Below, in pieces: positions 2,072 through 3,199 of a DNA stretch of 42,741 nucleotides. The stretch covers positions 1 to 42,741 of the forward strand of contig JACXWD010000024.1 of NCBI GenBank assembly GCA_014764515.1, given 5' to 3'. The notes below the pieces were generated by a model. That model had not been told where the DNA came from. It was given only the letters and a program-made list of their open reading frames with translations, and searched no databases. This DNA comes from Candidatus Polarisedimenticola svalbardensis (lineage in GTDB: Bacteria; Acidobacteriota; Polarisedimenticolia; Polarisedimenticolales; Polarisedimenticolaceae). Position 1 is the stretch's first letter; the number at the start of each line of letters is the position of its first letter. Both the position numbers and the translations under genes were made by a program.

Positions 2072-2290
2072 ATGGAAATTCAAATCGAATACTGCATGGA
2101 ATGAAACTACGAACCAACGGCGGCCGGTCTGGCTGCTGAACTGAAAAAGGCTCTCGGGATTGATGCGGAACTGATCGCCTCCGGCGGTGGCGTCTTTGAA
2201 GTGACCGTGGACGGCAACAAGATCTTCTCAAAGAAGGCGCTGGACCGGTTCCCCGAAGACGGAGAGATCCTGAAGCTGATCGGAGAATGA
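2072..2290 (+). CDS. SelW-like (Rdx family) selenoprotein with in-frame UGA
   Basis: A gene of 73 codons whose reading frame contains TGA at 2102-2104. Read as selenocysteine, it gives a 72-residue SelT/SelW/SelH-type thioredoxin-fold redox protein: strand QIEYC, active site C8-M-E-U11, then NYEPTAAGLAAELKKALG, and the family hallmark GGGVFEVTVDGNKIFSKK, ending RFPEDGEILKLIGE. The CxxU motif, position 8-11, size and the VFEV-x-VDG-x-IFSKK block all fit bacterial SelW-like Rdx proteins. A very strong ribosome site (AGGAGGGAGGG) lies 4 nt before the ATG. A stem-loop follows the TGA (separate entry). The proline dehydrogenase gene starts 3 bp after the real stop, so the two form an operon. The true stop is also TGA, so decoding must depend on context. 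Partners and substrate are unknown. A sequencing error in a Cys codon is the main alternative. Confidence 0.93.
2118..2138 (+). promoter_or_regulatory. bacterial SECIS-like hairpin
   Basis: An 8-bp stem (2118-2125 with 2131-2138, two G-U pairs) closes a 5-nt loop GGUCU (2126-2130). The loop begins 21 nt after the UGA codon, inside the usual 16-37 nt bacterial range. From memory, the E. coli fdhF SECIS apical loop bound by SelB is also GGUCU. The hairpin is inside the coding region, as expected for bacteria, and its codons still spell a normal SelW helix. Confidence 0.85.
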
Positions 2291-2293
2291 AAC

Positions 2294-3199
2294 ATGGGCC
2301 TCTTTGACCGGCTGGTCAGCCTGACACTGCCCGTCGTGCCGAAACCGATCGTCGGCTATTTCTCACGGCGTTACATCGCCGGGGAGAGCCTGGATCAGGC
2401 GTTCGGAGTGGCCAGGCTGCTGCTGGACAAGAACGCACTGGTCACCATGGACATCCTCGGCGAGTTCATAGAGGACCTGTCGGAGGCTGACGCCAATACA
2501 GCCCAGTACGTCGACCTGATCCGAAAGGTCGCAGAACAGCGACTGCCGGACACCAACGTTTCGGTGAAGCTGACCGCCCTGGGCCTCCAACTGGACAAGG
2601 CGGCCTGTCTGGCCAACCTGCGGAAGCTGATGGACGCGGTCCGCGAAACCGGCAAATTCCTGCGCATCGACATGGAAGACTCACCCTGTACCGACGATAC
2701 CCTGGAGCTGTACCGTGTGTTGCGGGATGAGTACCCCGGCATGGTCGGCGTCGTCCTGCAGGCCCGCCTGCGCCGGTCCATGGCCGATATTGACGCCCTG
2801 GTCCATCCCCAGGCGAACTACCGGCTGTGCAAGGGGATCTACCTGGAGCCGGAGGAAATCGCCTTCACCGAACCGGACCCGATCCGCGCCAGTTTCACCG
2901 CCCTGCTGGAGCGGATGATCGAGACCGGAGCGTATGTCGGCATCGCCACTCACGACGAACAGCTGGTGGACGAGGCGATCGCCTTGATCGAAAAGCACCG
3001 CCTCCCGAAGGAGCGCTACGAGTTCCAGATGCTCCTGGGAGTGACCGAGATGTTGCGGCAACGGATTCTGGATGCCGGGCACCGGTTAAGGGTCTACGTG
3101 CCGTACGGTGTGCAGTGGTATCCGTATTCCGTCCGAAGGCTGCGGGAGAACCCGCAGATCGCCGGCTACGCTTTCAAGGCGCTGTTCAACCGAAAGTAA
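2294..3199 (+). CDS. proline dehydrogenase (monofunctional)
   Basis: FAD-dependent oxidation of L-proline to pyrroline-5-carboxylate, feeding electrons to the membrane quinone pool. The protein has 301 residues, typical of the stand-alone bacterial enzyme. The (beta/alpha)8 barrel landmarks are visible: VTMDILGE, VSVKLTALG, LRIDMED, GVVLQARLRR, YRLCKGIYLEP (substrate lysine region), YVGIATHDEQLV, EFQMLLGVTE, and the C-terminal VYVPYGVQWYPYSVRRLREN with the paired arginines that bind proline carboxylate. A GGAGA ribosome site lies 7 nt before the ATG. It follows the SelW-like gene by 3 bp. No P5C dehydrogenase is nearby. Its last 14 bp overlap the convergent DUF2231 gene. Confidence 0.92.
   Translation: MGLFDRLVSLTLPVVPKPIVGYFSRRYIAGESLDQAFGVARLLLDKNALVTMDILGEFIEDLSEADANTAQYVDLIRKVAEQRLPDTNVSVKLTALGLQLDKAACLANLRKLMDAVRETGKFLRIDMEDSPCTDDTLELYRVLRDEYPGMVGVVLQARLRRSMADIDALVHPQANYRLCKGIYLEPEEIAFTEPDPIRASFTALLERMIETGAYVGIATHDEQLVDEAIALIEKHRLPKERYEFQMLLGVTEMLRQRILDAGHRLRVYVPYGVQWYPYSVRRLRENPQIAGYAFKALFNRK

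Follow-up and report, generated by a model that had tools for sequence, protein, structure and literature searches.

A selenoprotein of the SelW-like (Rdx) family is almost certainly encoded at positions 2072 to 2290 of the forward strand of the window, the 42,741-nucleotide stretch of Candidatus Polarisedimenticola svalbardensis DNA examined here, with UGA at codon 11 read as selenocysteine (Sec). The reading frame opens with ATG at 2072, passes through an in-frame TGA at 2102-2104 and terminates at a second TGA at 2288-2290. The product is 72 amino acids long (MEIQIEYCMEUNYEPTAAGLAAELKKALGIDAELIASGGGVFEVTVDGNKIFSKKALDRFPEDGEILKLIGE) and carries an N-terminal redox motif, C8-M-E-U11, in which the UGA occupies the second redox position; the cysteine codon, TGC at 2093-2095 (forward strand), was invariant among aligned relatives. 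An earlier sequence-only reading had given exactly these coordinates and this motif and had assigned the protein to the Rdx family. Profile searches, for which Cys was substituted for Sec, supported the assignment: matches exceeded the cut-offs of Pfam PF10262 Rdx (64.7 bits vs 22.6; E 9e-18, residues 2-70), NCBIfam TIGR02174 (57.5 bits, cut-off 34.2) and the equivalog model NF041051, 'SelT/SelW/SelH family (seleno)protein' (97.9 bits, cut-off 88). Because the Pfam Rdx match is accompanied by a TGA kept in every close relative, the frame is not a product of chance.

Two further arguments for translation made by the sequence-only reading, a ribosome site ahead of the gene and a frame conserved past the TGA, held up on comparison. 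A Shine-Dalgarno-like AGGAGGGAGG can be read in the sequence on the forward strand at about 2057-2066 (approximate limits), and GGAG, GAGG or AGGA occupied this site in all but one of the 10 genomes of the order. Between the window and a sister genome, 22 of the 28 nucleotide differences in the gene fell at third codon positions, as did 19 of the 24 differences located 3' of the TGA. This bias indicates that the frame is under protein-level selection.

Judged by its family, the product is a CxxU redox protein, and its most likely function, as predicted from the sequence, is that of a thiol/selenol redox protein. To our knowledge, no physiological partner has been established for the family. 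The AlphaFold model of the product (pLDDT 91.4) adopted the thioredoxin-like Rdx fold, and its best matches in the PDB were the SelW-family structures 2fa8, 2obk and 2oka (TM ~0.9); mouse SelW, 2npb, ranked lower. Vertebrate selenoprotein W also carries a CxxU motif and shares the thioredoxin-like Rdx fold. The window protein is shorter than 2npb, with 27% identity in the structural alignment, and has a bSECIS-type hairpin directly after the UGA, whereas the vertebrate gene has a eukaryotic SECIS in the 3'-UTR. The proteobacterial Rdx structures 2fa8, 2obk, 2oka and 2p0g have the same fold at 29-38% identity in structural alignments, and presumably carry CxxC where the window protein has CxxU. 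The closest likeness is to the bacterial SelW-like selenoproteins covered by PF10262, TIGR02174 and NF041051, which the window protein resembles in size, fold, CxxU motif, UGA with bSECIS and model scores above cut-off (PMC1088965, PMC2398784, PMC13188914); it differs from them only in its host, an order of Acidobacteriota, and in a conserved proline dehydrogenase neighbour.

Conservation of the TGA was assessed in two sets of genomes. A search reading through stops found the SelW gene in 37 of 60 relatives; all of the best 29 of these 37 matches had one TGA inside the match, and one also had a TAA at its end. Among the 60 relatives, a stop-free Cys form (CxxC) was confined to a different family of the class, and within the window's own order all 10 genomes examined carried the TGA form. 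Among named species genomes, drawn from a second collection, 80 of the 80 nearest relatives had TGA at the Sec codon; these were picked by similarity to the query, so the count gives no Cys/Sec ratio for the whole SelW family. They span Acidobacteriota, Desulfobacterota, Gemmatimonadota, Planctomycetota, Bacillales, Actinomycetota and others. The assembly that contains the window is a lone draft of 180 contigs, which could raise suspicion of a pseudogene or of a TGC or TGT wrongly read as TGA. The same TGA, however, appears in independent assemblies from many phyla, among them those of named isolates (Desulfopila aestuarii and several Bacillus, for example), and the substitutions are biased to third positions. 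Since every one of the nearest relatives shows the in-frame TGA in this column, sequencing error is ruled out, and the probability of error or pseudogene taken together is negligible. One genome of the order also carried a second, distant SelW-like gene with an in-frame TGA (L170, G007:C18:34018-34224; 37% identity).

The genome encodes all four components of the Sec machinery that the sequence-only reading had proposed to look for, including selB and selC, on whose absence its reading would have fallen. One tRNA-Sec (selC) with anticodon UCA scored above the Rfam cut-off (C143:84218-84312, 73.3 bits), and matches were found for SelB (326 bits, cut-off 242), SelA (485 bits) and SelD (366 bits; L048:1501-2439, G000:C54:14872-15810). 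SelD itself contains an in-frame TGA, giving CAGUAS, and is thus a second predicted Sec gene of this genome. Among the 60 relatives, tRNA-Sec was above cut-off in 53 and SelB in 51. These results bear on the possibility that UGA has been reassigned in the lineage, for example to Trp, which would make codon 11 an ordinary sense codon and would account for an in-frame UGA there. The genome has a true tRNA-Sec and SelB, the non-TGA homologue L046 has Cys and not Trp at the aligned position, and TGA terminates the SelW gene itself as well as 13 of the 26 non-overlapping window ORFs of at least 200 aa. The use of UGA as an ordinary stop makes a code change unlikely, as the sequence-only reading had reasoned from the many genes ending in UGA, and we consider reassignment barely credible. 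All three alternatives, a changed code, a sequencing error and a pseudogene, were rejected.

Selenocysteine decoding in bacteria calls on a cis element, which the sequence-only reading had not described and which we located as a bSECIS-type hairpin at 2118-2138 of the forward strand. It consists of an 8-bp stem, CGGCGGCC/GGCUGCUG, and a 5-nt loop, GGUCU, and lies 14-34 nt 3' of the UGA; 21 nt separate the UGA from the loop, and the MFE is -14.0 kcal/mol over the 44 nt counted from the UGA. Published bSECIS rules ask for a loop of 3-9 nt with a G within its first two positions, an upper stem of 4-16 bp, 16-37 nt from UGA to loop and an MFE of at most -7.5 (PMC13188914); stem, loop, spacing and MFE of the SelW hairpin all fall within these constraints. 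When compared with synonymous-codon randomisations, the hairpin of the window itself had an ordinary folding energy (z -0.11, not significant), and support for the hairpin is therefore comparative.

In an alignment of 29 sequences, 91.6% of cells at the hairpin positions paired, two-sided changes occurred in 5 of 7 pairs and the loop contained GU in 28 of the 29. Shifting the partner by 1-3 bases dropped pairing to 29-57%. Because the hairpin lies inside coding sequence, significance was assessed by a codon-preserving shuffle, in which codons were permuted among sequences sharing the amino acid in each column, so that proteins and column codon usage were kept. Whether run on the 29 or on 104 distinct sequences, none of the 1000 shuffles reached the observed total pairing. 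At the two wobble-wobble pairs, 21-33 and 24-30 (C-G to G-C in 10/29), two-sided changes likewise went beyond every shuffle in either set; the exact rarity is overstated because the shuffles ignore relatedness, but the two-sided changes nevertheless recur across phyla. On the evidence of these alignments, protein-level selection cannot explain the covariation at wobble-wobble positions, and the wobble-position test provides a clean demonstration of RNA-level selection on a SECIS hairpin.

These elements suggest a conventional route to the protein, in which we infer Sec insertion itself, the redox chemistry and the substrate. SelA would convert tRNA-Sec using selenophosphate made by SelD, SelB would bring the charged tRNA-Sec to the ribosome upon recruitment by the hairpin behind the UGA, and codon 11 would be decoded as selenocysteine. 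How SelB recognises a SECIS differs in part between species. The predicted product would be a small protein of thioredoxin-like fold whose C8-x-x-U11 pair could form a selenenylsulfide, and it may act as a thiol/selenol oxidoreductase or as a peroxide-scavenging redox partner. A competing reading takes the UGA as a real stop, with a downstream restart giving a truncated protein, or with the hairpin merely regulating the proline dehydrogenase (ProDH) operon. It draws on the start of ProDH 3 nt after SelW and on the fact that Sec decoding is here read from sequence. The C-x-x-UGA motif and hairpin are nevertheless kept in lineages without an adjoining ProDH, the UGA stands exactly at the redox position of the SelW family, and the spacing and loop of the hairpin fit the bSECIS rules. 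A real stop is accordingly very improbable, and decoding of the UGA as selenocysteine is strongly preferred.

The ProDH gene, at 2294-3199 of the forward strand (Pfam PF01619, 110.5 bits), is probably part of the same operon. A tight link between the two genes had been put forward as support for translation of SelW; the 3-nt gap, and the fact that ProDH immediately follows SelW in nine of the ten genomes of the order, bear out the link itself. The tenth genome, G004, of the same family, had no detectable ProDH in a 9-kb stretch around SelW, and among the relatives searched outside the order ProDH was not found beside SelW within the flanking DNA examined. The pairing is thus a lineage trait that says little about the function of the family, and we rejected it as general evidence for SelW function. 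Within the order, the linkage weakly suggests a redox or protective link of SelW to the flavoenzyme. That the two form a functional unit, with the selenoprotein as dedicated redox partner or protector of proline dehydrogenase, seems doubtful; such a unit, if true, would give the first partner for a bacterial SelW, and our literature search found nothing on a SelW-ProDH link. The conserved neighbour offers a testable hint at a bacterial SelW partner.

SelW-like selenoproteins with CxxU have been on record in bacteria since at least 2005, for some twenty years, and are covered by public models. They were reported as 48 sequences from the Sargasso Sea (PMC1088965), catalogued within 2005-2008 (PMC1794560) and found as the most numerous selenoprotein family in GOS, with 427 sequences (PMC2398784); reviews of 2022 and 2026 give the family as PF10262 with CxxU (PMC9312934, PMC13188914). 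Given these catalogues, the window SelW adds to an already known family. The loss of the gene to ordinary gene calling, noted by the sequence-only reading, is an annotation problem of a familiar sort and not a new biological kind; missed SelW genes are on record in the annotation of Epsilonproteobacteria (PMC4607533). The present analysis corrects the annotation of the window gene and contributes a well-supported instance of Sec decoding in Acidobacteriota.

In three Verrucomicrobiales MAGs (L107, L111, L120), the Cys8 codon of SelW was also TGA. An order-wide search of 387 Verrucomicrobiales genomes gave a SelW match in 71 and U-x-x-U at exactly these codons in 14 (L140-L148, L150, L152, L153, L161, L162). 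A UxxU form of SELENOW has been described in amphioxus and in an alga (PMC7539508), whereas the 2022 and 2026 reviews give the bacterial family as CxxU with one Sec and do not list UxxU (PMC9312934, PMC13188914); our literature search found nothing on a bacterial two-Sec SelW. When 12 of the 14 UxxU genomes were tested, tRNA-Sec was above cut-off in 9 and SelB in 7; those with no tRNA-Sec or SelB match may be incomplete assemblies. The SelW tree needed about four changes of the UxxU label (bootstrap 3-4), but the form could still have a single origin. The motif was mostly UGMU, and a single bSECIS-like hairpin followed the second UGA. The loop of this hairpin stands ~21 nt from one UGA and ~30 nt from the other. 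Both distances satisfy the spacing rule, so a single SECIS might be enough for the two Sec codons. The UxxU form would make it possible to test whether one SECIS can serve two UGA codons nine bases apart.
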